From Agarophyton chilense (lineage: Eukaryota; Rhodophyta; Florideophyceae; Gracilariales; Gracilariaceae): 64,000 nucleotides of DNA. Under the pieces are notes generated by a model. It did not search any database, had not been told where the DNA came from, and saw only the letters and a program-made list of their open reading frames with translations. Shown here in pieces: positions 8,521 through 60,089 of the stretch; the first letter of the stretch is position 1; each line of letters opens with the position of its first letter. The translations under genes and the position numbers were made by a program. The stretch spans positions 248,001 to 312,000 of the forward strand of contig JARGXX010000012.1 of the NCBI GenBank assembly GCA_030374765.1, read 5' to 3'.

Positions 8521-9455
8521 ATGTCAGAATCAAGTGGTGTTCTCAGTAAAGCGCAGGCTACGGCTCGTTACAATCGCCTGGTGAGAAACGCAAAGAATGT
8601 ACACATCAGCACCCAAGCAAGCCTACCTCTGCTTAATGCGGCACAGACTTTGCTTGATGTTTATCCAGTTACTGGACACGGAAGCACACCAGCTTCGCTA
8701 CCGAACGCTGAGCAAGTGAAAGAATATCTGCAGAGTCTATTGCCTCCTTCCACGAAGATATACACCGAGACATTCTTCAAGGAACCGCTTTTTGCAGCGA
8801 TATTTCTTTTCGATTTGGCCAAGTTGTATGGATTTTCAGACATTACTGAAAACTTCATCGAGAATCTCAATCTTTCTGCTCAAGATCGATCTGACAAGAG
8901 TATCGAAACGCACATATGGCTCGCACAGTTCCTCAATCTCTCACCAAAAGACATTATTGCAGTCGTAGAGATGTATAAACGTACTCGAGGATCTCCCAAT
9001 GTGCTAATCCGCTCTCGATCGAATCGCACAAGCGATCATTTAGAGGTCATACCAGACCCTGCTTCGGACACGATGGCTCGTCCGGTCAATACACCGATGG
9101 ATACCGATCGAAGACCCCAGGGGCAACTTCGGACGGATAATTACACAATTCGACCAGACTTGAGTCCCCGCACGAACCTCCAAGACGCAGATGATAATTC
9201 AGTAGCACGATCCGTTGCGCCAGCAGTTCCACTCAACCAGTCTCGGACTCCAAATATGGCTGTTCGTCACAGCATGGGTCATGCAGGTCAACCTCCTCCC
9301 ATGGATGATACACGAAACGCTTCTTACGTATGTCAGTACTTCAAGGACAGAATGTACGATGGAGACATAACTCAATCGGTTGAGCATGTCATTCGTGACT
9401 ATGACGCCTGTGCACAACAACACAGGTTGTCAACAAGTCAGAAGGCCGATTACTT
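8521..9455 (+). pseudogene. Copia gag, N-terminal part (interrupted)
   Basis: ATG at 8521 opens a frame of 311 codons up to the Gypsy insertion point. The coding sequence resumes in the same frame at 20874 once the Gypsy element and one copy of TACTT are removed, so gag was split by the insertion. This half is an alpha-helical, capsid-like region (for example LFAAIFLFDLAKLYGFSDI) followed by a polar, probably disordered segment rich in Pro, Thr and Asp. No zinc knuckle lies in this part. The apparent C-terminus beyond 9455 is LTR sequence and not part of the protein. Gag would package the element RNA in a virus-like particle. The assignment rests on position after the LTR and on the continuity across the insertion. 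Confidence 0.8.
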
Positions 9456-10317
9456 TGAAGAGCAACGTCCTCCAGGGAGGGTTTTGGGGACTTAAGTTTT
9501 TTCCGGAGCCTCCGGCGTGCAACCTCGTTATGAGTAGGAGTAATCCGTTTTCACGGCGTTTCCGGAACGCCGGTGATGCACCGGCGGGACCGGGTGCCAT
9601 ACACGTGGCCGCAGCGCCCGCGCAACACGTGGCCGCCAGATTGGCCCCTTTGTTAGACGGACATTTAGCTATTTAGGATAGACTTTATTTATTCCATTCT
9701 ACGGTGACTACAGTACTTAGGCCGCCGGCCTCGCGGCCGCCGGTCCAGTAAAGTCTCCCCAACAAGGGTGATCTTGGCCTTTCAGATCTTGGCTCTGGGT
9801 CGAACCGCCTGCGCGGATATACAACTCCTTACGGAGGGATTTCCCGTGGTGCACGGCTTCCCAACCCCCTTGGACGTTCAAGCAGCCTTCGTGTGTTGGG
9901 TATCTATTCCCACTTTCGTGGTTCCGCCCGTGTATACGGTTTGCTACACCCGACAGTGCCGGCTATTCCCGAGTCCCCTCTTGCGACTCGTGGTCAATTT
10001 CGCCCTCTTGCCTCCGTTCCCATTTTCCTTCCCTTTTCCTCCCCTTCATTGGACAATTCCCGCTCTTGCGGCTCGCACTGACACCTGTCGTGATCGCCAC
10101 TTTCGTGGGTTTTCCTCCTCAGAGGATACGCAAGCACCGCTTCGGCGGATATTCTCGGCTTCTTTCAGCCTCTCTGCGCCCGTCGCGACGGTTCGGCTCC
10201 GGCTTGCACCCGGCATTGCGCGCCGATCCCTGGGAGGGCTCTACCGCGCCGGTTACCTCGTGAGAGGAAGATCCGGACGTCTTCGTAGGTTTTCCCCCTT
10301 GGGGGCATTGTCCTACA
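9456..10317 (+). repeat. 5' LTR of chromovirus 1
   Basis: 862 bp, TGAAGAGCAACG...GTCCTACA. Paired with 20006-20868. It contains a short GC-rich palindrome-like block at 9721-9744 (GCCGCCGGCC...GGCCGCCGG). Long open frames inside it occur in both LTRs and are not genes. Confidence 0.95.
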
Positions 10318-10340: not shown

Positions 10341-10440
10341 CAAGACCGCTTGTGTCCTCTCTGAGGTTGTTTTCCGTATAACGGGTTTTCTCCGGTCTCA
10401 CCGGTTTGCTTTCTATTCTTCCGTCGAGACGGTGTGGCCA

Positions 10441-12291
10441 ATGTCAAGGAAACCGCCTAGCATGGAGCCTCCTGCAACACGCAGCCGTTCCCGCCAAAGC
10501 GGTGATGCCAGGGGCACTGATGTTCCACAGGCCCTGGCTCCAACACCGGATTCCCGGGAGATACCGGTCACCGGCACTGAAGACCCGCAGCCCGATTCCG
10601 GGTTAACGACCGTCGCAACGGTGGTTTCTCCGCCTCCGCGGTTGGTCGACCAAGCGCGGATTGTACGCTTGGAAGAGCAGCTCCGCTCCCTGCGGGCTGC
10701 TCACAATACCCTCTCGAGGGAGTTCACCTCTCTACGAGGAAGCCTCGCTAACCCCCCTACAAGTGAGTTAGCCGAGGATATCCGCGTATTGCGGTCGGAC
10801 GTCAATACACTACTCGAGTGTTTTGGCGCTCCATCTTCCTTCGCAGAAGGTATGGAGAATCGCTTCGAGCGTCTCCGAAGCCGACTTGAGTCGGTCGAGA
10901 GGACGTTAACCTCGCCCGCGAACGCGGCTAGACCGGTTGTCTCTCATCGAGAGACCCAGTCGCGGAACCGGAAGAGCCGGAAGAACCGGGATTCTAACCG
11001 TAAGCACGGACACTCGTTCGACTCATCATCTGAGTCGGACTGTAAACCGAGTGACTCGGAGAGTTCCGATTCGTCGGTGAGCGATGACCCACAGGATCGT
11101 TATGGGCGCTCTTCCCGCTCAAAGCGGTCCTCTGCCACCTACGGGGCCATCCGGTCGCGCCCCAAGGGTCGGCGACATCCGGGCCTCAAACCCTTGAAGC
11201 CCAACAACCCTCTGTACAGGACACTCCTGTCCTACCGGTATTACCGGCTAGAAGATTCCTCTTTAGGTCGGACACCGCGTGACACGGGTAAAGTGAAAGA
11301 CTGCATCAAGCGGATGCAGCTTTCACTTCGTAACCAGTCGTTTACTGGGGATGATCCAATTCTGGTCTTGGATTTCCTACACCGCTTCGTCGTGGAAGCC
11401 GATATACTCGGAATGAACGAAGGGCAAGCCTACGTGGCGCTACCCTACTTTCTAAGGGGTGTCGCTGAAGATCAGTTTTTGTCGGTTCGGGGCTCGTCGC
11501 GAGCTTCCGAAGGAGGTGTGACCTGCTGGCCCGAGGCCGTGCAGTACCTCCTGCGTTCCTACGCAACCAACTCCGCGATACAAGCGGCGATACTCGCTTT
11601 GCGAGACACTCGACAACGCTCCGGCGAGCTCGAGACCGATTACTCGGTACGCCTGAATAAGACTTTCCACCGTTGTGGTAATGTATACCCCGCTGGGGAA
11701 CGCTGTACGATGTTCATTGATGGCTTGGATCCAGCCATCAAGACTCTTTTCGCCCGTGACAGGGAACAAGAGCCGAAGGTGACCTACCTTGAACTCGTAC
11801 AGTTTGCCCGCGCAGAGGGAGATGCACTACGTGCACGCAATCCGGGAACCCGGTCGAAGGCCGCTAAAGCATTGCTGCTTGAGTCGGACTCTTCTTCACC
11901 GTCATTTGCGACGGATGGCATCCCCAAACAGGGTTATGACAATATGAATGTCATCCATCACGATGGTTTATCTATTCCGACAACGGAATTACCGTCTACG
12001 ACGGATGGCTCGGTTGACTCAACCACAAGGGACACGGAGAACAGGCAGGTCTTTTATCTTAATGACCGCCGCACTCCGGCCCCCCGTATGCCGTACTCGA
12101 ACGGAATGACACGAAGTCAGCGCCCTGGATGGGTTGGAAACCGGGAACCCGGAAGATACACCGATACTCGGAATGCCGTACCGCGAAACGCGGGAGTGAC
12201 GTTGGTGTGCCACTTGTGCTACGAGCGCGGGCACACCTCCCCGCAATGTCTTTTATCGCTACGCGATATGGCGCGAGTGGTGGATAATTAG
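10441..12291 (+). CDS. gag: Gag polyprotein of chromovirus 1
   Basis: The open frame begins with a GTG at 10432, but the first ATG is at 10441, giving 616 residues. Residues about 75-130 are coiled-coil-like (VRLEEQLRSLRAAHNTLSRE). A highly charged Ser/Asp/Arg segment follows near 180-240. The retrotransposon gag domain covers about 285-460, including a capsid-like core (FLHRFVVEADILGMNEGQAY). A zinc knuckle of the form CX2CX4HX4C (CHLCYERGHTSPQC) sits about 16 residues from the C-terminus. Gag should form the particle and bind element RNA through the knuckle. The gene ends with TAG at 12289-12291, and pol is open in the -1 frame from 12288. The homologous region in chromovirus 2 (57176-59452) confirms the family. 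Confidence 0.92.
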   Translation: MSRKPPSMEPPATRSRSRQSGDARGTDVPQALAPTPDSREIPVTGTEDPQPDSGLTTVATVVSPPPRLVDQARIVRLEEQLRSLRAAHNTLSREFTSLRGSLANPPTSELAEDIRVLRSDVNTLLECFGAPSSFAEGMENRFERLRSRLESVERTLTSPANAARPVVSHRETQSRNRKSRKNRDSNRKHGHSFDSSSESDCKPSDSESSDSSVSDDPQDRYGRSSRSKRSSATYGAIRSRPKGRRHPGLKPLKPNNPLYRTLLSYRYYRLEDSSLGRTPRDTGKVKDCIKRMQLSLRNQSFTGDDPILVLDFLHRFVVEADILGMNEGQAYVALPYFLRGVAEDQFLSVRGSSRASEGGVTCWPEAVQYLLRSYATNSAIQAAILALRDTRQRSGELETDYSVRLNKTFHRCGNVYPAGERCTMFIDGLDPAIKTLFARDREQEPKVTYLELVQFARAEGDALRARNPGTRSKAAKALLLESDSSSPSFATDGIPKQGYDNMNVIHHDGLSIPTTELPSTTDGSVDSTTRDTENRQVFYLNDRRTPAPRMPYSNGMTRSQRPGWVGNREPGRYTDTRNAVPRNAGVTLVCHLCYERGHTSPQCLLSLRDMARVVDN

Positions 12292-15200
12292 GAAGCCTTC
12301 TCCCCGCAGGAGAAGGGCTCCGTGCCACTCACGTCATATCTCCGCGCGAAGACGGACTTCCCCAACGCATTGGCTCACACTCCGAATTCTCGGTACAAAC
12401 CGGCTCAGCCGGCACGCGCCGCACCAGCGCCAAACCACGCTGGTGGATCTCAACCCGCTCCTGCGGTAGCTACCGTGCAACGGAATCATGCACTCTTTGC
12501 CGAGGAAGTCGGGCCTTCGCCCGACCAGGACCCTGTACAGAGAAAAGAATAGAGGGAGTCTCCCCTTCGGGAGAGGCGTCCTCAGAGTTGAGGCTGACGA
12601 CGCCCGAGGCGCCAATGCCTCGCTCCCCGGTGAAAATCCTGACAAGGAAGGACACCGCAGACGCGGACTCTAAACACCTCGGTGTTTTGCGTCGACCGTG
12701 GATACGGATTAGAAATAACCGGATCCCGGATAGAGTCTTGGTAATGGCCAAGCGTAACTACAAGTTTTACGCTGACCTTGGTCTGCACACGCAGTTTATG
12801 GTGAGACATCTCACTGTCCTGGATACAGGTGCTGGGCCGAACTTTATTGTGGAATCGGTTTTACCCCCGCCATTGCGGTCACTCATCCGTTCTGAAACGG
12901 TACCCGACGTGTCGGACGCCAATAACAACCCGTTGAAAATGGCTGGTGTGATCGACCTGATCGTCAGGCTAGGGCGGATGGTGGTTAAACTAACTTTTAT
13001 TGTGTGCCGCTCGCTGGCCGCGCCAGTTATACTGGGATGTGACTACTGCGACAGGTTTGTCGACGCCATCCGCCCACGCCTTAAGCAGGTGGAACTTGAG
13101 GACGGATCGACCGTCCCCATTGTTCGTCAACCGCTGAAGCGGGCATCGAGGAAACACGTTCCTCTACCTGCTGCGCAGAAACCCACACCGGCGAACCGGG
13201 ATTCTACGAAGCTACGCGTTGCCTCGTCAGTAACCATACCCCCGGAGAGCCAGGTTATGGTTTCAGTCAATTCCCGTCAACACGGTCTTCGGGTTGTTCA
13301 GCCCTTGCCCTCGTTGTACGAGAAATTTCAGTTAACCGTTGCGAACGGAATCGTGCAAGTCACGCCGAATTCCCCTTTCAGGGTGTTGGTTGCCAATCTG
13401 GAAAAGGCTCCCCAGACGCTGGCAAAGAACCAAGTCATTGGGTTTGTGACGCCGCACCCGCTCGCGATGCTCTCTACAAAGGTGACGGCTGCCAAAGTAC
13501 TCGGAATAACTCCCTCTACCGAGGATTGTCTCCCGGTATCCGGTGCAGAAACCTCCGGGGAGGCACAGCAGTTGGCGCTCGATAAAACCGTCAAGACGGA
13601 TGCATTTCCGACCTCGTCGGTTCCCACACCTGACACCAGGGCACAGCCTACGAGCTACGATAAGATAGACCCGATCAAGGCCCTCGAGGACCTGGACCTG
13701 AGTCATGTACCTGTATCACACCGGGACCGCTTACGCGGAATGCTACGCGAGTTTGCCACAATGTGGGACGGCTCACTGGGTGAGATCAATACAACCGAAC
13801 ATCGGATAGACCTGCTACCGGACGCACGTCCGGTTGCACAACCCCCTTACAGGGCGGGACCGAAAGCTCGGGAGGAGGAAGAATTTCAGGTGGACAAGAT
13901 GCTCCGTGCTGGAGTCATCGAGCCCGCCCAATCTCCTTGGGCCTCACCGGTGGTGCTGGCCCTCAAGGCTGACGGCACGTGGCGGTTTTGCGTTGACTAC
14001 CGCCGCCGCAATGCCGTCACCGTGAGGGACACCTACCCGATTCCGCGCATGGACGAGTGTATAGACTCGCTCGGGGACGCTACCGTGTTTACGGCTCTGG
14101 ATGCTAACTGGGGCTACTGGCAAGTCCCAGTCCGGGAAGAGGACCGAGACAAAACCGCGTTTGTTTGCCACTCGGGTTCCTACCGCTTCAAGCGGATGCC
14201 GTTTGGTTTAACCAATGCACCGGCCACCTTTCAAAGGGCAATAGACATACTGATGTCGCGTTTCAAGTGGCGCACGTGCCTTGTCTACTTGGACGACATC
14301 ATTGTCTTTTCCAGAAACCTGGACGATCACCTGACCCACGTGCGGGACCTGATGACCGTACTGCGAGACGCAGGAATAACCCTCAAGTTGAGGAAGTGCG
14401 AGTTCTTCACCGACACGGTGAAGTATGTCGGGCACGTCATCCGTCCAGGACGGTTAATGATCGAACAAGTTCGTATCAAGTCCCTCTGTGAGGCGAAGGA
14501 GCCCCGTACTCAAACGGAGCTCCGATCCTTTTTAGGTCTGGTCAACGTCTATCGACGGTTTATACCGAGTTTCTCGGATATCGCCGCTCCGCTAAACGCG
14601 CTACTGCGGAAGGGCCAGCCACCAAAGCTTGCGCCATTTACCACCGATCAGTCGGAATCTTTTCGCTCCTTGATTAAGGCAGTTACGACAGCTCCCATAC
14701 TATCCTTGCCCAAACCTGGGCTTCCCTACTCCATCGACACCGACGCCAGCGACCACCAGGGGGGCGGCGCACTGTTCCAAACCACCCCCGAGGGGGAACG
14801 CAAACCAATTGGCTATTGGTCCCGCACGCTGAACGTCCACGAGCGCAACTACTCGGTCTCCGAGAAGGAGTGCCTCGCAGTGGTCTGGGCGCTATCGACT
14901 CTGCGCCCATACCTCATGGGCGTTCATTTCACCGTGTACACGGACCATGCCTCGTTAAGGTGGCTGCTGAACATCGCAGATCCTTCTGGCCGCTTAATGC
15001 GGTGGCGCCTCCGCTTAGCGGAATTCGACTTCGAGGTCGTCTACAAAAAGGGTGTCCAGAACACCCAAGCAGACGCCCTCTCTCGATTACCTACGACAGG
15101 TGAAGCACTTGCCGACCCGGAGGTCGACGAGATCCCGTGCTTTACCTTGGAAGGGGGAACACCGACGGAGTCGAATTGGCCCGAAACCGGGGAAGACACC

Positions 15201-17831
15201 ATGGAAATGGATGAGCTACTCGCAGCGCGCAAGAATACAACACCCGTACCCGGGACCTTTGTACCCATCTCCACCGAGGAGATGACCCGAGTACAGTTCG
15301 GCGACCCGTTCTGCACGCGCATACGGGCCCGCCTAAACGGTGGAGAGGACCTCCCGTTCGAGGTAAACGACATCGGTTACCTCGTCTGGACGGTGGACCA
15401 CCGATCCCAGATCGTGGTCCCGCACACCCTGCAAACCAGGGTGCTCCACCTCTCACACTACCCGACCCTCGGGGGACACTCCGGTGGGAGAAAAGTTTAT
15501 CTAACCCTGCGAAGAGACTTTTATTGGCCCGCTATGGCGGTTGATTGCTACGCTACGGTGCAGTTCTGCACCCAATGCGCAAAGAACCGGGTGAAACTCC
15601 GGAAGCACTCCAAACGGATGAAGCTTTTCCCCGCAAGGGCGCCCCTCGAGTTTGTCGCAATCGACATTCTCGGGCCTCTACTCAAGACGCGCAAGAGAAA
15701 CAAGTTCCTCTTGGTTATCACTGACCGCTTTTCGAAGCTGGTGCGCACCGTACCTTTACGGAAGATCACCGCTTTCACGGTTGCGAACGCCTTCGTTACG
15801 CACTGGGCGTTCGTTTATGGCCCTCCGATAGAGGTTCTATCCGATAACGGTAAGCAGTTCGCCTCTAAGTTCTTTCAGGACGTCTGCCGCATCCTCGACG
15901 TCAAGAACCTGTTTACTACCACCTACCACCCGCAAACAAACGGGCAGGTGGAACGCTTCAACCGCACCCTACTCGCGTCGCTACGCTCCTACGTATCCGA
16001 TCACCCAATGACGTGGGACATTTATTCTGATGCTATCACCTACGCCTACAACACGCAGGTTCACCGGACAACCGGTCTGACTCCCTTCGAGCTTGTGCTC
16101 TCCAGGACACCCCCACCAGTGGCGGTCGAACCCCAACACAGGGTCAACTCTTTCCCATCCGTGGGTCAATACCGCCTCAAGTGGAAGAACTGGATTACCA
16201 AGCTCGTACCGGTCGCCCGGAAGTCCATGGAACGTGCCCAGGCCGCCTACAAGCGGGATTTTGATAACCGCTTACGCGGACCACTGCCGGCACCGCCCAA
16301 GCAGGGAACCTACGTGTTCGTTCGCCGGGAGTACTACAACCCCCGGACCAACAAGCGTCACAAGCTCTCGCCTGTCGCTGAAGGTCCGTTCCGGGTCGTG
16401 TCCTCCCTCCCCGGCACCGTTGTGGTGGACAAGAACGGCGACCACGAACGTCTTTCACAAGACCGCATCGTAGCCGCCCCACCGCCGCAGGCGGAAAACC
16501 CATCAGCCCCCGTCGAAACGGCCTCGGATACCACGGGTACAACGGTGGCATCACGCCCCGCCGTGGTACCGCACCCCTCACGGGGTCTCTCCGATATACC
16601 GACTTTATCGGAACCACCGGCAATGCCGGAAACACCTGGCCCTTGCGGCCAGCTCCCTTTACGGGCGCCGCGAAGCGGTATTTATACCCGCCATGCGGTT
16701 AGCCCACCATCACCCGTCGCTCCGTCTAAGGAGGGGGAGGGGACCCGCTCAATCGCGGAAGCATCGCCGTCGCAACGGAAGTTTAACCGGACACCCCGGG
16801 CAAGGCCGCCGAGCGGGCAACTGGCATCGTCGCCGGACGTTACTCCGCTCCCGCGGGACGCGACGGTCAATCCGACCACCACGCAACCCCGCAAGGGGAA
16901 CCGAGGCGCTGGAAGACCCGAAGCCGGGAAACGAGACCCTACGGACGCTCCGCATCGCGTGGAAGCAACTAAGGGCTCCCCGCACATTCGCTGTCGCACA
17001 CCGAGCGTTTCGGTCGATACCGGTACTCCGGCGGGCGCTGCGCAAGCAGGTCTAGCGAGCCACTCCGTTGAGAACGGTACGAACCCCATGGGGGAAAAGG
17101 GGCGCGACGACAAGTCGAAAACCGCCTCCCTTGCCGAACAATCGGAGCCAACCGTCCGCGACGGCCCGACCACCCGTCCTCAAGGTCACGTGACCCGGGC
17201 GGGAGATCGGACCAATGGGCACCCGGCATCCCGATCATTGGCTGACAGCCACCCCGCGGAGGCGGATCGCCGGGACGGTGAACCACTCACCGCCCACGGC
17301 GCACCGCACAGCGGAAACTGCCCACCAATGGGAACGCCGCATGCCGCAAATCAAGCGGAGGCCTCCGGCGAACCGTCACCAAGACGGAAGGACCCCCGCA
17401 AACTCGTGGTAAGGGCGGACTTCAGGGAAGCCCCTACCGCCCAGCGGAACCACAACCCGGCCGCGCCGGCAACTTCCGCGAAGCGGTACGGCAGCCCCGG
17501 CAACCCGGCAACAACCGCAGAGCGGAATAACAAACCGGGTGACCCGGAACAGGCGACGAAGAGCCCAGCACCACGCGGCGCTGAGGCTCGGGCCACCACC
17601 ACCCGGCAAGGCCGGCAAGTTTACGTGCAGGAGTACGTCCTCGACCGAATCGTCGGACATAGCTACGATGAGCATGGGGTGCTCCAGTACCGGGCCCGCT
17701 GGTACGGATACGGGCCGGAGTGGGACACCCCGGAGCCCATCGAGCACCTCCCGCGCTCCGCGGTAATGCGATACCACCGCCTTGCGGGGACCGCACTACC
17801 AGCCACGCTGGTAGACGCCCAAGAGGGATAA
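12288..17831 (+). CDS. pol: Pol polyprotein of chromovirus 1: PR, RT, RNase H, integrase, chromodomain
   Basis: The frame is open from 12288, overlapping the gag stop in the -1 register; the first strong protein-like segment begins near 12588. Residue numbers here count from 12588. The aspartic protease has DTGA at 79-82. The RT has the motif A Asp (TALDANWGYW) near 504 and YLDD at 567-570. RNase H begins with IDTDASD near 715. The integrase has an HHCC-type zinc domain (HLSHYP...CTQC) around 955-1000 and a DD35E core with D1026, D1086 and E1122. A linker of about 350 residues, rich in Pro, Arg, Ala and Gly, follows. The chromodomain (YVLDRIVGHSYDEHGVLQYR, then WYGYGPEWDTPEPIEHL) lies at about 1678-1735, near the C-terminus at 1747. 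The chromodomain should direct integration to particular chromatin. Order and domains are those of Ty3/Gypsy chromoviruses. All catalytic residues checked are present, so the protein looks functional. Confidence 0.93.
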   Translation, partial: LGSLLPAGEGLRATHVISPREDGLPQRIGSHSEFSVQTGSAGTRRTSAKPRWWISTRSCGSYRATESCTLCRGSRAFARPGPCTEKRIEGVSPSGEASSELRLTTPEAPMPRSPVKILTRKDTADADSKHLGVLRRPWIRIRNNRIPDRVLVMAKRNYKFYADLGLHTQFMVRHLTVLDTGAGPNFIVESVLPPPLRSLIRSETVPDVSDANNNPLKMAGVIDLIVRLGRMVVKLTFIVCRSLAAPVILGCDYCDRFVDAIRPRLKQVELEDGSTVPIVRQPLKRASRKHVPLPAAQKPTPANRDSTKLRVASSVTIPPESQVMVSVNSRQHGLRVVQPLPSLYEKFQLTVANGIVQVTPNSPFRVLVANLEKAPQTLAKNQVIGFVTPHPLAMLSTKVTAAKVLGITPSTEDCLPVSGAETSGEAQQLALDKTVKTDAFPTSSVPTPDTRAQPTSYDKIDPIKALEDLDLSHVPVSHRDRLRGMLREFATMWDGSLGEINTTEHRIDLLPDARPVAQPPYRAGPKAREEEEFQVDKMLRAGVIEPAQSPWASPVVLALKADGTWRFCVDYRRRNAVTVRDTYPIPRMDECIDSLGDATVFTALDANWGYWQVPVREEDRDKTAFVCHSGSYRFKRMPFGLTNAPATFQRAIDILMSRFKWRTCLVYLDDIIVFSRNLDDHLTHVRDLMTVLRDAGITLKLRKCEFFTDTVKYVGHVIRPGRLMIEQVRIKSLCEAKEPRTQTELRSFLGLVNVYRRFIPSFSDIAAPLNALLRKGQPPKLAPFTTDQSESFRSLIKAVTTAPILSLPKPGLPYSIDTDASDHQGGGALFQTTPEGERKPIGYWSRTLNVHERNYSVSEKECLAVVWALSTLRPYLMGVHFTVYTDHASLRWLLNIADPSGRLMRWRLRLAEFDFEVVYKKGVQNTQADALSRLPTTGEALADPEVDEIPCFTLEGGTPTESNWPETGEDTMEMDELLAARKNTTPVPGTFVPISTEEMTRVQFGDPFCTRIRARLNGGEDLPFEVNDIGYLVWTVDHRSQIVVPHTLQTRVLHLSHYPTLGGHSGGRKVYLTLRRDFYWPAMAVDCYATVQFCTQCAKNRVKLRKHSKRMKLFPARAPLEFVAIDILGPLLKTRKRNKFLLVITDRFSKLVRTVPLRKITAFTVANAFVTHWAFVYGPPIEVLSDNGKQFASKFFQDVCRILDVKNLFTTTYHPQTNGQVERFNRTLLASLRSYVSDHPMTWDIYSDAITYAYNTQVHRTTGLTPFELVLSRTPPPVAVEPQHRVNSFPSVGQYRLKWKNWITKLVPVARKSMERAQAAYKRDFDNRLRGPLPAPPKQGTYVFVRREYYNPRTNKRHKLSPVAEGPFRVVSSLPGTVVVDKNGDHERLSQDRIVAAPPPQAENPSAPVETASDTTGTTVASRPAVVPHPSRGLSDIPTLSEPPAMPETPGPCGQLPLRAPRSGIYTRHAVSPPSPVAPSKEGEGTRSIAEASPSQRKFNRTPRARPPSGQLASSPDVTPLPRDATVNPTTTQPRKGNRGAGRPEAGKRDPTDAPHRVEATKGSPHIRCRTPSVSVDTGTPAGAAQAGLASHSVENGTNPMGEKGRDDKSKTASLAEQSEPTVRDGPTTRPQGHVTRAGDRTNGHPASRSLADSHPAEADRRDGEPLTAHGAPHSGNCPPMGTPHAANQAEASGEPSPRRKDPRKLVVRADFREAPTAQRNHNPAAPATSAKRYGSPGNPATTAERNNKPGDPEQATKSPAPRGAEARATTTRQGRQVYVQEYVLDRIVGHSYDEHGVLQYRARWYGYGPEWDTPEPIEHLPRSAVMRYHRLAGTALPATLVDAQEG

Positions 17832-18163: not shown

Positions 18164-19957
18164 TCATTCCTCCGCACGAGGTGGACCCCCGCCCAGGCGG
18201 TTGGCTAAGACATCCCGCATGGCGGCCACATCACCCGAGATCTCGGAAGGGCGAAGCCCCACCTCCCGAAGGAAGCTCGCGATGACCTCGCCCCGCTCCG
18301 CGCCAGCGGCAGTTGCGGGCGGGCCCGCCACCGATGGAGTCGGATAGGAATCCATTCGCACGGCATCAGCAGCCCCGGATGGAGCCGCACCACCGTATTC
18401 AACGGACTCCTCACCGGCCTCGCTGGACTCGTCACCCTCCATCGGAGCGTAACCCGGATCCTGCGGTTCGTTGTTGACCATCGGGTCACCATCCGCATAG
18501 TCGCGGTAATAGTCGCTCGAGTCGACATACCCTCGCGGGTGGTCGGCCGGGACTTCACGCGGCGCATGCCGGTTGGCTTCTGCTTCCTCGCGGCTGATCT
18601 CGTGGTAATCCCAGGGGTCGAAGTAGATGAAATCTCCCGCTAGCGCGGTATTCCTCCCGAGTCCGGGGCCAGACCCGCGACGCGGTTGAATGCGTTGGGA
18701 GTTCTCCAGCGGGACCTCATCCCACTGGACCCCCTCCACAAAGTCGAGGAGGCCCAGCATCTCTTCTTCGTTCGCCTCGCCCCCGAGGGGGATGCGCATG
18801 TCCAAACGGCGGATCGCAGCCCGCAGACGCGGTGGCACGTACCACAATCGGTATTGGTCATACGCCTCAGCGAGGATAAAAGCCGCAGTGCGGACGGCCC
18901 ATTCGCTTACCACGACGGACCACCACCCCGACTGGGGATCGTTCAAGAACGACGACCCTACATAGGTGAAGACTGGGGGCAGCTCAATGAAGCAACCCCA
19001 GCACGCCTCCAAGGAGGACCACCAGTCTGGGAGACTGACGTACCGACCGCGTCGGTGAGCAGGCGCGATGCGCTCAATCTCCGTGTTCTGGTACGGTACG
19101 AAATACCCGGTCCGGGCCCGCCAACGCCGCTCATCGCGGATGAAGTTCTGAAGGAAGTTCGAGCGCGACTGCCGCGGTTGGTAGCGGAACTCTGCCCGAA
19201 GAATCGGTCGTACCCAGCAAAGGGCTTCTTGCCGAGCGATCCGTGTGCCCCTCCAAGCGAGGGTTTCCAATCCGTTTAGACGGTCACAGTACGACATTTC
19301 CCCACGAGTGCGGTAAAGGTGGACGTCGAATTCGACCTCTGGCGGTATCGGGAACTCGAAAGGCGCCCAATGGTGCCTGAGATAAGCGATCCGCACGAGC
19401 GCGGCCTGAGCCTCCGCAGAGGATTCACCGCGTCGGCGGAGTATGTGGTGTACCGGGATGGCGATACGATTACGCCAATCCCAGGACATGGTCACCACGC
19501 CGGGCAGGTCGCCCGGGAGCATCTCCGAATTATCGGTGTGGGACTGGATCAAATCCTCGTCGCGGACAGCCAATGCGTGAAACCGAGGCGCATACCGCAA
19601 CATCGCGGAGCCATGCCGAGTTCTCGGATTTGCACCCACAAGGGCGTCGTAGGTCGGCCACTGCGGTGGATCCGCCTGTCCGCGAAAGCGGGCGCCAATA
19701 CGGCGGTCTTCGTACGCGAGGTTGACGGCCGGAGTTCGGTTGGTAATATCCCCAGGGTGGGGCGCGGACCGGAAGCCGGTGGAACCGCCGAGGGCGAGAG
19801 TCGCGGATGTGTTATGACGGTCGGGGTTAGACATGGTGCGCGTTGGTGTGCTGTGGTGGGAATCGGAGGCGGAGGGCGTGCGTGGGATCCTTGGTGAAGG
19901 TGTGTTGGTTTCCGGAGACCCGGTGTCGGACGCGCTCTTATCATGACGAGCTGCCAT
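18164..19957 (-). CDS. Antisense ORF of chromovirus 1, function unknown
   Basis: An uninterrupted frame of 597 codons lies opposite to gag-pol, between pol and the 3' LTR. The ATG at 19957 is 48 bp from the LTR edge, so transcription would most simply start in or near the LTR on the opposite strand. The N-terminal ~60 residues are Ser/Thr/Pro-rich and probably disordered. The centre, about residues 70-420, is Trp- and Arg-rich with ordered character, including NPRTRHG, WDWRNRIAIPVHHILRRRGE and LPDWWSSLEACWGCFIELPP. The tail is acidic with Tyr and ends in a short helical segment (EVIASFLREVGL). No transmembrane helix or known domain is evident. Chromovirus 2 has a homologous frame in the same place and orientation (49565-52051). 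Shared blocks include NP-basic-TRH and a P-x-W...PPV-x-x-Y block, which argues for a real, selected gene. The function is unknown; additional antisense ORFs are known in some plant Gypsy elements such as maize Grande. Confidence 0.75.
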   Translation of the reverse strand: MAARHDKSASDTGSPETNTPSPRIPRTPSASDSHHSTPTRTMSNPDRHNTSATLALGGSTGFRSAPHPGDITNRTPAVNLAYEDRRIGARFRGQADPPQWPTYDALVGANPRTRHGSAMLRYAPRFHALAVRDEDLIQSHTDNSEMLPGDLPGVVTMSWDWRNRIAIPVHHILRRRGESSAEAQAALVRIAYLRHHWAPFEFPIPPEVEFDVHLYRTRGEMSYCDRLNGLETLAWRGTRIARQEALCWVRPILRAEFRYQPRQSRSNFLQNFIRDERRWRARTGYFVPYQNTEIERIAPAHRRGRYVSLPDWWSSLEACWGCFIELPPVFTYVGSSFLNDPQSGWWSVVVSEWAVRTAAFILAEAYDQYRLWYVPPRLRAAIRRLDMRIPLGGEANEEEMLGLLDFVEGVQWDEVPLENSQRIQPRRGSGPGLGRNTALAGDFIYFDPWDYHEISREEAEANRHAPREVPADHPRGYVDSSDYYRDYADGDPMVNNEPQDPGYAPMEGDESSEAGEESVEYGGAAPSGAADAVRMDSYPTPSVAGPPATAAGAERGEVIASFLREVGLRPSEISGDVAAMRDVLANRLGGGPPRAEE

Positions 19958-19991
19958 GCCGACTCCCTCTTCGAGATGTTCGCCCTGTCTT

Positions 19992-20005
19992 AAGGGGGGG
20001 GGATA
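19992..20005 (+). other. Polypurine tract of chromovirus 1
   Basis: AAGGGGGGGGGATA lies directly before the 3' LTR start (TGAAGAG at 20006), where plus-strand priming is expected. Confidence 0.75.
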
Positions 20006-20868
20006 TGAAGAGCAACGTCCTCCAGGGAGGTTTTTGGGGACTTAAGTTTTTTCCGGAGCCTCCGGCGTGCAACCTCGTTATGAGTAGGAGTAATCCGTTT
20101 TCACGGCGTTTCCGGAACGCCGGTGATGCACCGGCGGGACCGGGTGCCATACACGTGGCCACAGCGCCCGCGCAACACGTGGCCGCCAGATTGGCCCCTT
20201 TGTTAGACGGACATTTAGCTATTTAGGATAGACTTTATTTATTCCATTCTACGGTGACTACAGTACTTAGGCCGCCGGCCTCGCGGCCGCCGGTCCAGTA
20301 AAGTCTCCCCAACAAGGGTGATCTTGGCCTTTCAGATCTTGGCTCTGGGTCGAACCGCCTGCGCGGATATACAACTCTTTACGGAGGGATTTCCCGTGGT
20401 GCACGGCTTCCCAACCCCCTTGGACGTTCAAGCATCCTTCGTGTGTTGGGTATCTATTCCCACTTTCGTGGTTCCGCCCGTGTATACAGTTTGCTACACC
20501 CGGCAGTGCCGGCTATTCCCGAGTCCCCTCTTGCGACTCGTGGTCAATTTCGCCCTCTTGCCTCCGTTCCCATTTTCCTTCCCTTTTCCTCCCCTTCATT
20601 GGGCAATTCCCGCTCTTGCGGCTCGCACTGACTTCTGTCGTGATCGCCACTTTCGTGGGTTTTGCCTCCTCAGAGGATACGCAAGCACCGCTTCGGCGGA
20701 TATTCTCGGCTTCTTTCAGCCTCCCTGCGCCCGTCGCGACGGTTCGGCTCCGGCTTACACCCGGCATTGCGCGCCGATCCCTGGGAGGGCTCTACCGCGC
20801 CGGTTACCTCGTGAGAGGAAGATCCGGACGTCTTCGTAGGTTTTCCCCCTTGGGGGCATTGTCCTACA
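20006..20868 (+). repeat. 3' LTR of chromovirus 1
   Basis: 863 bp, same ends as the 5' LTR. Twelve differences from 9456-10317 (eleven substitutions and one inserted G near 20664). Followed by TACTT at 20869-20873. Confidence 0.95.
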
Positions 20869-20873
20869 TACTT

Positions 20874-21912: not shown

Positions 21913-21914
21913 AT

Positions 21915-48608: not shown

Positions 48609-49171
48609 TGTGAGATAGCGCCGAAAGGCGTGTAAGTTTCCTAGAGGCGCGATTCGTGCGGAGTCCGTAAGCGGGGCGTGCGTGTCACACGAGGCCGGTC
48701 GGGGAACGGTGACGCGTGGAGACGAGCGCCAGCACCGGGCGGTCGTAGGGAGACTAGGCGGTTGGGAACGTCAGGCGCGATCGAGGTACGCGCGAAGAGT
48801 CCGAACGGCTTGTAAACCTGTAGATATCCCGTGCGGAGTAACGCTTCAGGTCTGCTTTAGAAACGATACTTAGACTAGGACGGTGGTGCTTACCCTTTAC
48901 TGTTTGGAGGGTGGCGGGGAGCGGAGGTGCATAAGTAGTGTGCACCTCCGAGCTGCAACCCGCATTACAGTCCGTGGTGGCGCCTGCACCCACGTGGCGG
49001 AAATATCACGGGGTGGGGGACGCCAACTACCTACAACTATGCTACGTGTTAACCTACTGTACATGTCCGTCCGGTGTGCCATCTTCGCACACGTGTGCGA
49101 CCAGGCCACTTGCACTCAGTCCTTACCACGCCCTTCTTACCTGACAACCCGCTCGGATTCACTATACCACA
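48609..49171 (-). repeat. 3' LTR of chromovirus 2
   Basis: 563 bp; on the plus strand it runs from TGTGAGATAGCG to CTATACCACA. Ten differences from 59527-60089. Confidence 0.94.
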
Positions 49172-49185
49172 GACCCCCCTCCTAG
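49172..49185 (-). other. Polypurine tract of chromovirus 2
   Basis: On the minus strand AGGAGGGGGGTC lies directly before the 3' LTR, the expected site of plus-strand priming. Confidence 0.7.
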
Positions 49186-49449
49186 AGTGCGCGACGTCCT
49201 CGGAGCCCCAATATCCTAGGCGGTAGCTGGTTGAGCGCGCACCGAGCGGACACGGGGTTACTTTCGCGGACCGACACGAAACGCGCTAGAAGCGACCGGT
49301 CGCGTTATACGGGCCCGTTCGGAGATCCGCATTGTGCCACAGCCGCTCGGAAAGGCCTGTAATAGCGCAGCCGTCCGGGAGTAGACGTTATATCGCAGCC
49401 GTTCGGTGGTGCCCGTCAAATAGCGCCCGCCGGCGAGCGGTCGTCGGTG

Positions 49450-49462
49450 GTATATTTAAGCA
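49450..49462 (+). promoter_or_regulatory. TATA-like box upstream of the antisense ORF
   Basis: GGTATATTTAAGC lies about 105 bp before the ATG at 49565, in the orientation of the antisense ORF. The surroundings are GC-rich, so it stands out. Function is inferred only from position. Confidence 0.4.
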
Positions 49463-49564
49463 CGTCTTTATCCCGGGCGGAGTGGGGGGTAGACTCCAGA
49501 GAGGACCGTTGCGGCAGTTCCGAAGAGTACAGACTCAGAGGCCGCGTGTCCGTTTGGTTCAACC

Positions 49565-52051
49565 ATGGAGGACAACAACAGCGCTGTCAACCGTGACCGG
49601 GAGGAGAACGCGGGGCGTCAGACAACTTCAGCCCTGGCAGATATACCAATACTGCGACGGGTAACGGTAACCGCGCCCGCTGCAGCGCCCGTAGAACCTC
49701 CGTTCGGTGCCCAAAGCGGGTGCTACGCGGTTTGGGATGCCTGCCAGGCGGGGGTTCCACCGGTGTCGTCGGGAAACCCTCCCGTGCCTTCGTTTCTCCC
49801 GTTCGGTGCCTTACAGTCGCAGATAGCGGGGCGTGTTGGCGCGGACGTGCTGAAGCTTCCGTTCGGATACGGAACACCCGGAGCGGGCTTGCCCGGTGTG
49901 TTTCGAAACCCGCTACCCGGGCAGGAGCAGGACCACCGCTGACGACGACCGCAGGGCCGTAGGGGTTGGCCGACCGGGAAAGAGCCCCCGTTTTCGGTCG
50001 AGACGTTGATCTCGGGGGACGAATGGAGCGGATGCTTGGACGCGCGGCGGTTCGGCGCAATACCGAAGCAGCGAACGTTTTTCGAACGCACCGGCCGGAA
50101 TCCGAAGCGGACGCGCCACGAGGCGTGGCGTGCGCGATGGAGGCATCTTCCGCGAATAACTGGTCGGGAGGGGGACGAAACAGTAGGCAGCTGTGACATG
50201 CCGTTCCTCCGTTGCCCGGAGGAGTATGAATACCAGGGTCGTATGCGCGACCTCGTTACGCAGATGCTGTCAGATGAGAGTATTCCCAATCCGCACGGTA
50301 ATCCGTTGGGGCTTGTGATGTTTTCCCCTCTGTACGACGGGCTCTATTTCCTGAACCGACGCCGCTGGGGCGACCATGTCGCGACCGAAGCACGGATCCA
50401 GTCGGGCTTGGGTGGTTTCGTGTACGGGTGGCATAACGTGGAGTTCTTTGACGTTCCGGTGTCTTAGCGGGAAAACTTGTACGTGAGGATTCCGGAGAAT
50501 TGGCCCGACGTGGATGTGCCCCGAGATCTGTCCGTGATGATCCCGCCAGTTCTGGCCTACTATTCCGACGATGTTCTTAGTGGGACGTCGATAGCCGAAC
50601 GGATCATGCGCGTAGCGTACGCAGAGTAGGCGGTATGCGCCCTCATGTCATTTCTTCAGGCCGTAACGGAGGGTGTGAGGGTCTTCACCAAAACGGAGGA
50701 TCCGCGGCTGAACTTGTACAGAGGAGATCCTGGTCCGCGCGAGCCCCCTGGGTTGGGAAGGTTACTACCGTTACCGTACGGTCTAGTCTGCGTCATCATG
50801 CAGATGGGGCTGCGAAATGTGCTCCGCGGAACGCGGTATACGCCCGGAGAAGCAAGAAGGTGGCTCTTTTTATCCGTCATGACGGACTGGAGGTCGACTC
50901 CTGGTTTCTTGTGGTTCGAACCCCGGTCGGGCGGTTTTCCCACAATGCCCATCCTCCGCGTCGGTGACAATCCCATCGTCCATCGCCTGATCCCGGAGGC
51001 GGAGAGGCCTTCATGGGAGTTCGAAGACGTCACTGATTACTTTCCGCTAGGATTCATGGACCCCCATTCGCGAAGTGGGGACGGTGACGGGCCCATTGCC
51101 GATGCGGATCTACCCCTTCCGGCGAACGAACCGTCGACGGTCCAGAGGGCCGTTACCGAAACGGGCATGCAAATGGAAAGTCCCCCGAGAACGGTAAATG
51201 CCGGTGTGCAGGTATCCGCATCGGAAGGCGGCGAGGAGCGTGACGCTTTGAGAACGCTGCAGGAAGTTTGCCGGGCGAATGACGAAGAGCCCCCCGTGTC
51301 GGTCGTCGAAGCTTTAGAAATGGCGGCTGAGGTATGGGTGCCCCGCGCGGATGCGTTCACCAGCCTGTTGAGCGGGGAGATGGTCAGTACTGTCGACTTG
51401 ATGTCATATGTCAGTGCTGTCTGCGTTTAGCTCCTCCAGCAGCGCATCAATGCCTTTGGAGACATGGTAACCCGACCGGGCGGCGCGACAGTGTCCCAGC
51501 TTATTGGGCGTCTGGACCTGTCGATGGGGCGTACGAACGATGCCGCCCAAGAGTGGCTGCAGAGAGTGCGAGCGGCAATACAGTCCGGGTCATTCTCCGC
51601 GGCGCCTGGGGCTTTCGGCGTCCCGGCGGCTGAGGTCGCGGCGGGCGCATCGATGCCGGACCGGGCGGGGGATGCTGAGGACTCACCGACAGTGAGGGCG
51701 GCGGCTCAGGCCGCTGCGTCGCCGCGCGGGGAGGAAGAAACCGAAGGGCCCACTCCTGGCTGGGGTCCGACGGACGAGGCCTCCTTACCGACCGGGCCTC
51801 TTTCCTCTCTGAGTCGTACCGTTCGGAGGGTCGCGCATGGTACGGCGGTTAGTGCCCTCTTTCAGCCGTTCGGACGTCGTTTGGGCTCGCCGTCGCCGGT
51901 ACCAGCTCCTGGAGTTGCTGCCAGGGGTGCTTTGAGAGGCCAGCGAGGAGGCCGCCGCGGTGGGCGTCGTAGCGTTAGGGACTTTGCGTCCCTTCCGGTG
52001 AGTTCCCGTATCTCGGAAGCGTCTTCTCCGTCCGGAAAGCGGGGAAAGTGA
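49565..52051 (+). pseudogene. Antisense ORF of chromovirus 2, decayed
   Basis: One frame of 829 codons, opposite to gag-pol, is broken only by stops at 49940-49942, 50465-50467, 50627-50629 and 51428-51430. A non-coding frame of this length in GC-rich DNA would be expected to contain many more. It resembles the intact antisense ORF of chromovirus 1 in several blocks. NPKRTRHEAWRARWRHLP corresponds to NPRTRHGSAMLRYAPRFH there. LYVRIPENWPDVDVP followed by IPPVLAYY corresponds to YVSLPDWWSSLEACW followed by LPPVFTY. The tail differs: here it is Ala/Gly-rich and ends in a basic RGG-like region (RGQRGGRRGGRR), absent from copy 1. The function is unknown. The conservation of place, strand and sequence is the main evidence that the frame was once a gene. 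Confidence 0.7.
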
Positions 52052-52991: not shown

Positions 52992-55900
52992 TCATGCCGT
53001 TCGGGATTTGCGCTTCCAATATCGGCTAATAAAGTGTTGCGGAACATTCTTGGGAGATTCCCAAGAGTCTTCCGCAGCACTGCAACCGTACCAGCGTACG
53101 CGATAAACAAGACCGTGCGGAGGGTCGTCGGCCCGCCCATGGTCGAGGATTCGCTCGACAATGCCAATGCTGTCCGGTTGGGTAGAGTTAGACTTAGCCG
53201 AATCGAGTTGTGAAAGCTCCGCTCGGTGATTATTTCCAGCAGGGGGCGAGGTAGTGTCCGTCACGGGTTCCTCTGCAAACGGACCGTACGGGCGCGTTCT
53301 GTTGTAACTGGAACGGGTTGTATCCGAGCGGGGGCGCGAGAGACGCGGTCAATGCTGATGGTATCGTGTATCCCGTCAACATTGATCGTGACCGTTCTGT
53401 CCGTCGCGGAAATGACTTTGTAGGGCCCCGTGGTCTTTGGCAGAAGTTTCCGTGAGGTACGTTCCTGCTCCTCGAGCACGCCACCGGTCGGAGTTGTCGT
53501 AGGACCGTCAAGGAAGACCTCCTCGTCGGGCGCAAATGTGGGGGTTGCCCGTACGGATTTGTCGAAGTCCGCCTTGTAGCGCTGTTGCGCATTTGTGAGG
53601 CGGTTCCGAGCGGACTGGAGTGTAGCCTTGAGAAGCCTGAGTGTGTAGCGCTTCATATGTCCCGGGGTTGGCTGCGTCGGTGTTGCTGGGTGCGTGGCGG
53701 AGCTGGGTTCGTCCAGGACGACGTTCGGAGGTACGCAGGTCAGGGCCAAATCGAAAGGCGTGGTGCCCGTGCTTCGGTGTACCTAAAGGTTGTAACCGTA
53801 CGTTAGCGGCTGTATATACGCGTGCCAGTTAGATTGGTGATCCGCAACGTAGTGCCGTAGGCGCTGGACGAGCGTCTTATTAAACCGTTCGGCTTGTCCG
53901 TTCGCCTGAGGGTGGTACGCCGTCGTTGTGACGTGTTTCGTACCTAAGGCCCTGCAATTCTCCTCGAAGAACTTCGAGACAAACTGAGGTCCGTTGTCGG
54001 TGAGCAAATAGTTCGGAATTCCGTACGGGTAAGCCCAATTCTCTAAGAACGTCCGGGCCACCACCGGGGCGGTTGTGGACCGTAGCGGAACTTCTCCGCA
54101 GAGCTTTGTGAACCGGTCGGTGATGAAGAGGATGTACTCATGTCCAGTGACTGACTTCGGAAATGGACCGACGATGTCCATTGCCACGAACTCAAGTGGC
54201 CCCGCAGCGGAAAAGAGCTTAAGCCGCTTCTGTGAGCGGTTTTGTGTGCCGCGCATTGCGGCGCACGAGCGGCAATCCGAGCGGTTTGATAAACATCATT
54301 AGCCATCTGTGGCCAGTAGAAGTCCCTTCGGAGAGTGTTGTACATTCGAGTCCCGCCCGGGTGTCCTTCCAGGCGCGGATAATGCGAAAGATGGAGGACG
54401 CGCGGAACCAGCGAGCGGGGTACCACCTTCTGTAGGGCTCCGTCCAGCGGGGAGCGACGGATGAGAACTCCGTAACGGTTGATGTCGAAGAGGGTAATCC
54501 CATTACCAACGTCCTTCCGCACGGATTTGCAGTACTCGTCCTCCGCCTGCTCTCGGATGAGCTCTTCCAAAGTGACCGGTCGGACGTTCATCTCCTCTTC
54601 GACGATGGCCATGACCTCGGGGCAGCCGATCGGGTTCTGTCCGTCGTGCCAGTCAAGGACAGCGTCTGTCTTGATCTCACCGTTGACGGTGATGTCCGCA
54701 ACGAGGTCGTCGTTCTCTTCCGCACGGTCCGCAAGGAGTAGGCATGGGACCTCCTCGTCCAGGGAAGTGGTGTTTTCTCCGTCCGTCTGGATTCGCGACA
54801 GCGCGTCAGCGGCTTGGTGTTTTATGCCCAGCCGGTGGACTATATCGAGGTCATACCCCATGAGACGGAGCCGCCAACGAGCCAGCCGTCCGGAAGCGTC
54901 CGCCAGGTTGAGTATCCACCTCAATGCGTGGTGGTCCGTACGGAGGGTGAAGCGGGCGCCCTCGAGATACGGTCGGAGGTGCAGTATTGCCCACACGACA
55001 GCGAGGCATTCCCGTTCCGTTGTGGAATATGACCGCTCAGCCTTATTCAGCGAGCGGCTCCAGTATCCGATTGGGAGTAAGTCACCGTCCGGTTGCTTCT
55101 GTAATAAGACGCAACCGACTTGCTTATCGCAAGCGTCGGTATCCAGGACGTACGGAATATCTTGACGTGGGATAGCCAGAATGGGGGGACGTATTAACCG
55201 TTTGCGAAGTTTCTCGAAGGCCTCGTGCTCCGTATCGGCCAGGGTCTCGAAGTTGAACGGTTTGTTCTTTTCGAGCTTGCTGTTCAACGGGGCCGCAATT
55301 CGGGCAAAGCTTTTAAGAAAACGTCGGAAGACGTTGCACAGTCCCAAGAACGAACGGAGTTCGGTTTGGTTAGTGGGGGGTTTAGCCGCTCGGATAGCAT
55401 CTTGGGTCCTTGTGGAGACCTGCAGCATGCTCGGGCGGATAACGTGACCCAAATAGTCGACAGTATCGCTGAAAAATTGACCTTTATCCAAACGGAGAGT
55501 GATACCGGCCGATCGGAGTGATGAAGGAATGGTCCGAACATGGTCGAAATGCTCTGAAACCGTGTGGGAGTAGATTACAACGTCATCCAGATAGACCAAC
55601 GCGTATTGCCACTTGACGCGGAACAGTATGATGTCCAAGGCCCGTTGAAATGTGGCGGGGGCGTTCTTCAAACCGAACGGCATTCGAACATACCTGTACA
55701 GTCCCATATGAGACGTGAACGTTGTTATATCCCGGTCGGCTTCATCCACCTCGGTCTTCCAATAGCCGCTGTTCGCGTTCAGGGTGGAGAATATTTTTGC
55801 TTCTCCAAGAGAATCGATGCATTCGTCCATTCTCGGTAATGGGTGAGTATCCCGAACAGTGACTGCGTTTAGTCGACGGTAGTCCACACAGAAGCGTAAA

Positions 55901-57083
55901 CTTCCGTCTTTCTTTTGAGCGAACACAACCGGACTGGCCCACTCGGCCGAGGAAGGCTCAATTACACCGAGCTCCAACTGCTTGGTGACCTCCTTGCGTT
56001 CGAGTTCGCGACGCGCCGGACCTGCACGGCATGGCATCTGGTATATCGGCATTGTACCAGGTTCCAATTGGATCCTGTGCTTCGCTGCCGCGATACGGCC
56101 CAGATGGCCGTTCCACAAGTCCCGAAACGGTTTGAGGAGCTCAATGACCCTTTCTCGTTCGGACTCGAATTCGGGGGACAACTGGACCTTTGCGATCCAG
56201 TCGTCTTCTGCATCAGGCGTTGGCTCTTGTCCGGTGGGCTTCGACACGTCCGAAACGGAAATAGATGCGTCGTTGGGGCCCCCCCTCCTTAGTTTCGTCG
56301 CTCCGAGACGGAAAGTCGGGTGTTATTAATGCGACGGGGGAGGGTAACGCCAGGCCGATGATTTTGCCTTTGTGAAGGCGAACCGAACGATCGGAAAAGT
56401 TAGCTACCTGAACGTATAATGCCACGTCCGGTCGGATTTCCATTACCCCGTTAGCCAAGAGGGTTAACTCCTCTTTATGAGCAGAGCAGTGATGTCCTTG
56501 GATAAACATGAGGCCAGCGGCCCGGGAGATTACCAATACATGAGATTCCGACATTGGTGGTATAGAAACCGGGCGGGCGACACGAATCTTGTTCGACGGA
56601 GGTTCCCGAACGGTAGCTTGGGCTGGTAGCATAGATTGCCCTGACGGGGTTGAGCTCTGCCCGGACGCGGATTGAATCGCCACGGGGGGCGAGTTGCGTA
56701 GTACAACAATTCGTTTCGGAGGTAGTATCGCCAAAACGTACTTGTCTATGAAAGACGTGCCAAGTATGCAGCTGGCAGCGAGATTGCTGGATAAACTGAA
56801 CCCGGACGGTCAGCGCTCCAAGCTGGAAAAGGAGGGGTACGACCCCCAATATGTCCATTCGGTTGCGAGACGCAACCGTAATGTTATCCACCGACCGGGG
56901 TTGCAAGTGCCCTCGCCAGTGGGGAGGAAGGTGCCGCACGTGAATGAGGTTCGGACCCGTGCCAGTGTCCAGTACACCTGTAAGTGGAAACATTACCGAT
57001 CGGGAGAAGCCGACGGAGAAATTCACTTTATAGAGCAAACTGTTTAACAACATTACTGGCGCGGCCGGATAGGTTTCATCCAA
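52992..57083 (-). pseudogene. Pol of chromovirus 2, broken: PR, RT, RNase H, integrase, chromodomain
   Basis: The polyprotein is spread over at least five frame segments: 57083-56475, 56734-56213, 56247-54043, 54256-53261 and 53264-52992. The protease has DTGTG (GVLDTGTGPNLIH). In the RT, motif A reads STLNANSGYW, with Asn (AAC, 55777-55779) in place of the catalytic Asp that is present in chromovirus 1 (TALDANWGYW); YLDD is intact. RNase H has LDTDACDKQVG. The integrase has a partial zinc region (HLSHYPRLEGHPGG), the core Asp residues (VAMDIVGPF, LLTDNGPQF) and Glu (GQAERFNKTL). The C-terminus is a chromodomain, IVERILDHGRADDPPHGLVY then VRWYGCSAAEDSWE. The lost Asp alone should abolish polymerisation, and the frame changes prevent a full-length product. 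Confidence 0.85.
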
Positions 57084-59526: not shown

Positions 59527-60089
59527 TGTGAGATAGCGCTGAAAGGCGTGTAAGTTTCCTAGAGGCGCGATCCGTGCGGAGTCCGTAAGCCGGGCGTGCG
59601 TGTCACACGAGGCCGGTCGGGGAACGGTGACGCGTGGAGACGAGCGCCAGCACCGGGCGGTCGTAGGGAGACTAGGCGGTTGGGAACGTCAGGTGCGATC
59701 GAGGTACGCGCGAAGAGTCCGAACGGCTTGTAAACCTGTAGATATCCCGTGCGGAGTAACGCTTCAGGTCTGCTTTAGAAACGATACTTAGACTAGGACG
59801 GTGGTGCTTACCCTTTACTGTTTGGAGGGTGGCGGGGAGCGGAGGTGCATAAGTAGTGTGCACCTCCGAGCTGCAACCCGCATTACAGTCCGTGGTGGCG
59901 CCTGCACCCACGTGGCGGAAATATCACGGGGTGGGGGACGCCAACTACCTACAACTATGCTACGTTTTAACCTACTGTACATGTCCGTCCGGTGTGCAAT
60001 CTTCGCCCACGTGTGCGACCAGGCCACTTGCACTCAGTCCTGACCACGCCCTTCTTACCTGACAACCCGCTCGGATTCATTATACTACA
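59527..60089 (-). repeat. 5' LTR of chromovirus 2
   Basis: 563 bp, paired with 48609-49171. Followed by CAAAT at 60090-60094. Confidence 0.94.

Follow-up and report, generated by a model that had tools for sequence, protein, structure and literature searches.

Some LTR retrotransposons of flowering plants and of a fungus carry accessory genes in antisense, the function of which is treated as open in a review (PMC7264820). In the Retand lineage of Gypsy elements, represented by gene23 of maize Grande, by rice RIRE2 and by Silene Retand, an antisense ORF lies between pol and the 3′ LTR and is kept across copies and species (PMC7264820, PMC11963269). Retand is a non-chromovirus lineage, and TRP28 (PF04195) is given as present in 97% of its clusters (PMC11963269), and the product of Grande gene23 is called nuclear in the review (PMC7264820). 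An additional antisense gene, brtn, is reported for the Boty / BcGypsy1 retrotransposon of Botrytis cinerea (PMC7264820, PMC8365987). Antisense coding is also described for HTLV, in which HBZ (HTLV-1) and APH-2 (HTLV-2) are coded antisense, HBZ is nuclear and the antisense promoter lies inside the 3′ LTR (PMC7264820, PMC11963269).

Here, we describe an antisense frame of a chromovirus in the red alga Agarophyton chilense, found in a 64,000-nucleotide stretch of contig JARGXX010000012.1 (hereafter the window). In the literature on red-algal elements or chromoviruses, covered mainly through open access, no report of such an antisense gene was found. The layout is already known; the protein family and the host group, red-algal chromoviruses, appear to be new.

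Results

The host element and its antisense frame

The element that carries the frame, here clade A, is a complete chromovirus, with LTRs of 862-863 bp that are 98.6% identical and have TG...CA ends; the paired LTRs are accompanied by a polypurine tract and a target-site duplication (Table 1). Pfam places RT, RNase H and integrase of pol in the Ty3 order, which assigns the element to Ty3/Gypsy, and the chromodomain piece at the end of pol recurs in clades B and C (see below). The gag frame gave no Pfam match; by eye, it contains a CCHC-like stretch near its end. A polypurine-like tract was also seen by eye in clades B, C and D. Copia-like frames, recognized by eye from translations, flank the chromovirus at 8521-9495 and 20932-25079, and the chromovirus seems from these to sit inside a copia-like element.

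The preliminary description, made from the letters of the window, had reported an intact antisense frame of 597 codons between pol and the 3′ LTR of an otherwise complete chromovirus. Both points hold, since the frame runs exactly from ATG to TGA without an internal stop, and the LTRs, target-site duplication, gag and pol (ending at 17831) are all in place. The frame has the placement that defines an aORF-3R, namely antisense in the interval between pol and the 3′ LTR.

Table 1. Features of the two chromoviruses in the window.
Feature	Position	Strand	Basis or remark
Target-site duplication TACTT, left copy	9451..9455		outer flank of 5′ LTR
5′ LTR, clade A chromovirus	9456..10317	+	direct repeat with 20006-20868
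gag frame, clade A	10432..12291	+	open reading frame; GTG is merely the first start-like codon
pol frame, clade A	12588..17831	+	Pfam RT, RNase H, integrase, chromodomain; protease-like DTG by eye; 12588 is the first start-like codon of the frame, not necessarily the true start
Chromodomain, end of pol	17634..17774	+	Pfam PF00385, E 9.5e-5, 22.7 bits, slightly below the Pfam cut-off of 25.1
Antisense accessory gene, 597 aa	18164..19957	-	ATG to TGA, stop 18164-18166
Conserved core, residues about 120-440	18638..19600	-	protein alignments
Polypurine tract TTAAGGGGGGGGGATA	19990..20005	+	between antisense ATG and 3′ LTR
3′ LTR, clade A; proposed antisense-promoter source	20006..20868	+	direct repeat with 9456-10317
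CACGTG box 1, U3 of 3′ LTR	20152..20157		inside ACACGTGGC
CACGTG box 2, U3 of 3′ LTR	20176..20181
Target-site duplication TACTT, right copy	20869..20873		outer flank of 3′ LTR
3′ LTR, clade D element	48609..49171	-	repeat of 59527-60089
Clade D antisense frame, remote homologue	49565..52051	+	between pol and 3′ LTR; four in-frame stops
Chromodomain-like piece, clade D pol	53019..53204	-	tblastn E 2.5e-4 to clade A chromodomain
Decayed pol, clade D	53330..57056	-	tblastn with clade A pol
5′ LTR, clade D element	59527..60089	-	repeat of 48609-49171

Properties of the antisense protein

In clade A, the core of 321 aa contains 14 Trp, 41 Arg and 0 Lys, and the tail has a net charge of -21; acidic tails are shared by all four clades. 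The head and the tail look disordered by composition, as judged by eye. The Trp/Arg-rich centre and the acidic tail named in the preliminary description were therefore recovered, whereas its ordered centre was not: two AlphaFold runs with alignments of seven sequences gave no usable model (mean pLDDT 31.8 and 35.7). Among the seven aligned sequences, 50 columns are invariant, all within the core, and since one of these is a cysteine, a zinc-finger-like cluster is not kept. The head carries the motif FRSxPxP in clades A and C, with FRSVPLP in the protein P0002 and FRTAPLP in P0003, and in A and its near kin the tail terminates in a short conserved motif around FLREVGL. A simple pattern for NLS-like sequences found no match in A-C. 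The core carries a net charge of +2, 0, -8 and -5 in A, B, C and D, respectively, values that do not favour a simple basic binder of nucleic acids; the earlier proposal of a nucleic-acid-binding protein loses ground for the same reason as far as a basic core is concerned.

A search of about 5.8 billion proteins returned six relatives, three of them unnamed and three from Gracilariopsis chorda, a florideophyte red alga. The latter are hypothetical proteins with 55, 40 and 56% identity over 99, 80 and 38% of the query. With Pfam at E 1, no match was obtained for the clade A protein and four relatives or for the proteins of B, C and D; TRP28 (PF04195) was absent from all of these, and no antisense protein matched a bZIP domain, the class to which HBZ belongs. 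No match was found in NCBIfam (four proteins) or PHROGs (three proteins), none of 18 pattern matches in IMG/VR was confirmed, and PDB sequences gave no credible match (nothing, or chance matches at E 3.4). The earlier remark that the protein matches none of the familiar standard retrotransposon proteins is supported. On these searches, the antisense protein appears to be a new family without detectable relatives of known function.

Copies and clades in the genome

The genome (79.8 Mb in 135 contigs) was searched for further copies. Because scoring was restricted to the best candidates, the counts are lower bounds and are biased towards good copies. With DNA, the best 40 of 397 candidates were scored, at 95-100% identity, and all but one covered approximately the whole frame. 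With protein, the best 73 of 1869 candidates for clade A had 92-100% identity, and internal stops were present in 22 of the 73. Queries with two distant relatives brought up clades B and C. The best 77 of 1823 candidates scored for clade B are 41-44% identical to P0003, with internal stops in 23, and clade C appeared at 37-39% identity among the 107 scored, the fetched ones being confirmed as clade C. The reference copies of B (L020) and C (L043) encode 618 aa and 608 aa, compared to 597 codons in clade A, and the cores of A, B and C are 38-45% identical to each other. Homologous frames in other copies, the presence of which the preliminary description had made a test of its claim, thus occur in at least 73 clade A copies, at least two further clear clades and one remote clade. 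Like an aORF-3R, the frame is present in many copies and is conserved across element lineages.

The remote clade, clade D, is represented in the window by a second chromovirus, on the minus strand at 48609-60089, with LTRs that are 98.2% identical. Genome-wide, the clade D frame was found in 11 places, including the window copy, with 93-100% identity over at least 260 of 261 query residues; 9 of these 11 are stop-free over the 261-residue query stretch, and open frames reach up to 852 codons. In one copy (L069), the frame is open for 820 aa to the end of the fetched stretch. This frame aligned with the A-C profile in hhalign over 149 collinear columns (P 1.7e-6, probability 90%), scoring 57.8 versus a maximum of 25.8 for 100 shuffles and 15.1 for the reversed sequence. 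As further controls, gag scored 13.9, pol 29.5 and the sense frames of L069 itself at most 18.4. In the window copy, the piece at 50468-50626 matches the A-C profile, and the pieces at 50645-51427 and 49943-50464, each run alone in hhalign, did not match it. Taken together, these results show a protein that three or more element clades have conserved in the same position and orientation, and of which a fourth carries a remote form.

Two side observations concern clade D. More than 100 further places in the genome are 28-42% identical to part of the clade D protein, mostly over the first 137 query residues, and form a group that exceeds A-C in size and diversity. At position 63948, near the end of the window, the 12 bases that begin the clade D antisense gene recur, perhaps as another D copy leaving the window.

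LTR signals and the proposed route of expression

The gap between the antisense ATG and the LTR is 48 bp in clade A, in agreement with the preliminary description, and 81 bp in B and 24 bp in C, where the LTR starts were set by eye at the purine-tract/TG junction in one copy each, without a partner LTR. Since this gap is short and is partly polypurine tract, an mRNA that includes the ATG almost must start in the LTR. In clade D, 393 bp separate the ATG from the LTR, so that a start outside the LTR is possible and the leader differs there.

Between the LTRs of the three clades A-C, alignment is limited to short words, the longest match being 23 bp. The hexamer CACGTG, first noticed by eye, was subsequently compared with every other 6-mer; it alone is present at least twice in the first 400 bp of the A, B and C LTRs (both strands), and the only 8-mers common to these regions are ACACGTGG and CACGTGGC. 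The clade D LTR also has two boxes, at positions 77 and 176. The chance of two CACGTG boxes in 400 bp, taking each clade alone, is 0.0026 for A, 0.0016 for B, 0.011 for C and 0.026 for D. CACGTG is the core of the G-box, a target of bZIP/bHLH proteins in plants. As a palindrome it would suit a two-way promoter, without being proof of one, and the boxes may serve the sense promoter alone. An antisense mRNA driven by the LTR is, judging from this arrangement, the likeliest route of expression and a probable one. A bacterial promoter scan of the LTR was set aside as not meaningful for this host. In one locus with a clade B gene, a 183-bp tandem duplication (L046:4575-4940) lies just upstream of the antisense gene on the LTR side, probably in U3.

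Selection on the protein and alternative explanations

Between A and B, the core has a dN of 0.55 and a dS of 2.28, with 35% identity at fourfold-degenerate sites and 56, 68 and 35% identity at the three codon positions. The core dN is 0.67 for A-C and 0.66 for B-C, and dS was beyond the range of the method in both. Values of dN of 0.55-0.67 with synonymous sites near saturation show that the protein is constrained. The spacer between pol and the antisense gene gave no DNA match between A and B. For the other proteins of these two clades, gag is 57% identical over 395 aa with a dN of 0.37. Two large stretches of pol have dN values of 0.18 and 0.29, and the chromodomain (73 codons) has 0.37; in gag and in each of these stretches, dS exceeded the range of the method. 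The antisense protein is thus constrained, less so than gag and pol.

This higher rate bears on one alternative, in which the product is a suppressor of host silencing, acting on RNAi or on chromatin, and its retention and its evolution faster than gag are both explained by that task. A core dN above that of gag and of all three pol stretches is as in host conflict, and the accessory position of the gene also fits. Fast evolution has other causes, however, and no motif or fold was recognized, and we consider a suppressor unlikely.

Within clades, the mean pairwise dN/dS is 0.71 in A (16 copies), 0.54 in B (21) and 0.70 in C (12); these and the variant counts omit L060, L062 and L067 (incomplete) and L068 (partial). 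The shared and private counts additionally omit L061 (rearranged) and L052. Variants private to one copy have an N/S of 0.87-0.94 of the neutral expectation, and those common to at least two copies 0.64, 0.60 and 0.79 in A, B and C. When the shared variants were pooled, 58 of 151 were synonymous versus 29.5% expected (P 0.011), and 1 stop was seen versus 6.7 expected (P 0.009); the direct comparison of shared with private variants was not significant (Fisher P 0.09). Since most variants are private to one copy, the within-clade dN/dS is not decisive. The preliminary description had counted a dN/dS near 1 across copies against the gene; private variants within clades come close to this value, and the comparison between clades, with synonymous changes near or beyond saturation, does not.

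Neither a stop nor a frame-shifting indel is present in 8 of 16 copies in A, 10 of 21 in B and 2 of 12 in C. When clade A copies were picked by RT similarity, ten were fetched of 40 listed, six were readable and one of these six was intact. Of 73 scored copies of a pol stretch of equal length (597 aa), 40 contain stops, versus 22 of 73 for the antisense frame, each list being ranked by its own protein. Within clades, recently inserted copies decay in a nearly neutral way.

The near-neutral private variants would also be expected if the antisense RNA is what matters, with the frame open by chance or drift and the transcript regulating the sense RNA or feeding small-RNA silencing; antisense non-coding transcripts are mentioned for other LTR elements in the review (PMC7264820). 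Against this, conservation is at the protein level across clades with synonymous sites near saturation. In a six-frame comparison between clades, the antisense frame reached 234-291 bits, far ahead of the best other frame (72-108). Its length also exceeds everything in 5000 dinucleotide-Markov versions of the 2174-bp region from pol to the LTR, in which the longest ORF had a median of 153 and a maximum of 484 codons. An RNA-only role is therefore very improbable.

Another reading takes the frame as a host gene captured by transduction, a passenger that does nothing for the element, which the lack of similarity to known protein families would allow. However, the frame was scored in at least 73 clade A and at least 77 clade B copies, and the diverged clades differ in gag and pol too while the place and orientation of the frame stay constant. 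Eight fetched 9.9-kb loci hold nine antisense frames, one from clade A and four each from B and C (L043 and L048 have identical frames); in nine of nine, the adjoining half of the element has its chromodomain and pol pieces on the opposite strand. No host gene of known function was named among the six database relatives either, and a captured passenger is slightly less credible still. Least probable is a structural or env-like product, whether expressed through splicing or in another way: the review places env-like frames in this same interval upstream of the 3′ LTR (PMC7264820), but this frame is not on the sense strand, as an env-like frame would be, and no segment of transmembrane strength occurs in A-D (maximum Kyte-Doolittle mean over 19 residues 1.11-1.53). 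Taken together, these results indicate that the frame is very probably a conserved protein-coding gene belonging to the element.

Discussion

The explanation that we favour is that a red-algal chromovirus lineage carries an antisense accessory gene between pol and the 3′ LTR, driven by the LTR and encoding a trans-acting nuclear regulator; as a whole, we give it a probability of about 0.6. An unspliced antisense mRNA would start in U3 of the 3′ LTR, near the doubled CACGTG box, and run back towards pol, which would make the LTR a two-way promoter. The product, with its FRSxPxP head in A and C, conserved core and acidic tail with the final motif, would act in trans in the nucleus and would regulate the cycle of the element itself, by analogy with HTLV HBZ or Grande gene23; contacts with other proteins are a more likely mode of action than basic nucleic-acid binding. 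By analogy with these two proteins, the nuclear regulatory role is a tentative assignment that we hold at somewhat less than even odds, and a nuclear regulator with protein partners is a guess from the same two cases.

The results suggest that the element uses both DNA strands for proteins it needs. A bolder version, which we regard as speculative and improbable, is that the red-algal chromovirus radiation is obligately two-stranded, with sense gag-pol from the 5′ LTR and, from a two-way 3′ LTR, a fast-evolving antisense protein of unseen fold that counters silencing. If this were true, the antisense gene of red-algal chromoviruses would correspond, in a retrotransposon, to the accessory gene of a virus.

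With four or more diverged clades, this compact genome offers a comparative handle on the kept residues, the LTR signals and the spacing, and an apparently new protein family, with no relatives of known function detected, is added to the accessory genes of retrotransposons. The distribution points to more than one origin or gain of such genes among Ty3 elements whose hosts are distantly related.

Compared to chromoviruses in general, the clade A element shares the Ty3-type gag-pol with chromodomain, the LTRs, the polypurine tract and the target-site duplication, and differs by its extra antisense gene. HBZ resembles the product in being coded antisense; here, however, no Pfam match (bZIP) is present and the element is not a retrovirus. 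Boty and its brtn share the extra antisense gene and differ in their fungal host. A close counterpart is the Retand lineage, where the antisense ORF lies between pol and the 3′ LTR as it does here. The layout like that of maize Grande, to which the preliminary description had pointed, is confirmed by the accounts of that lineage in the two sources (PMC7264820, PMC11963269), whereas the present gene belongs to a chromovirus of a red alga and encodes a protein without a Pfam match, TRP28 included.
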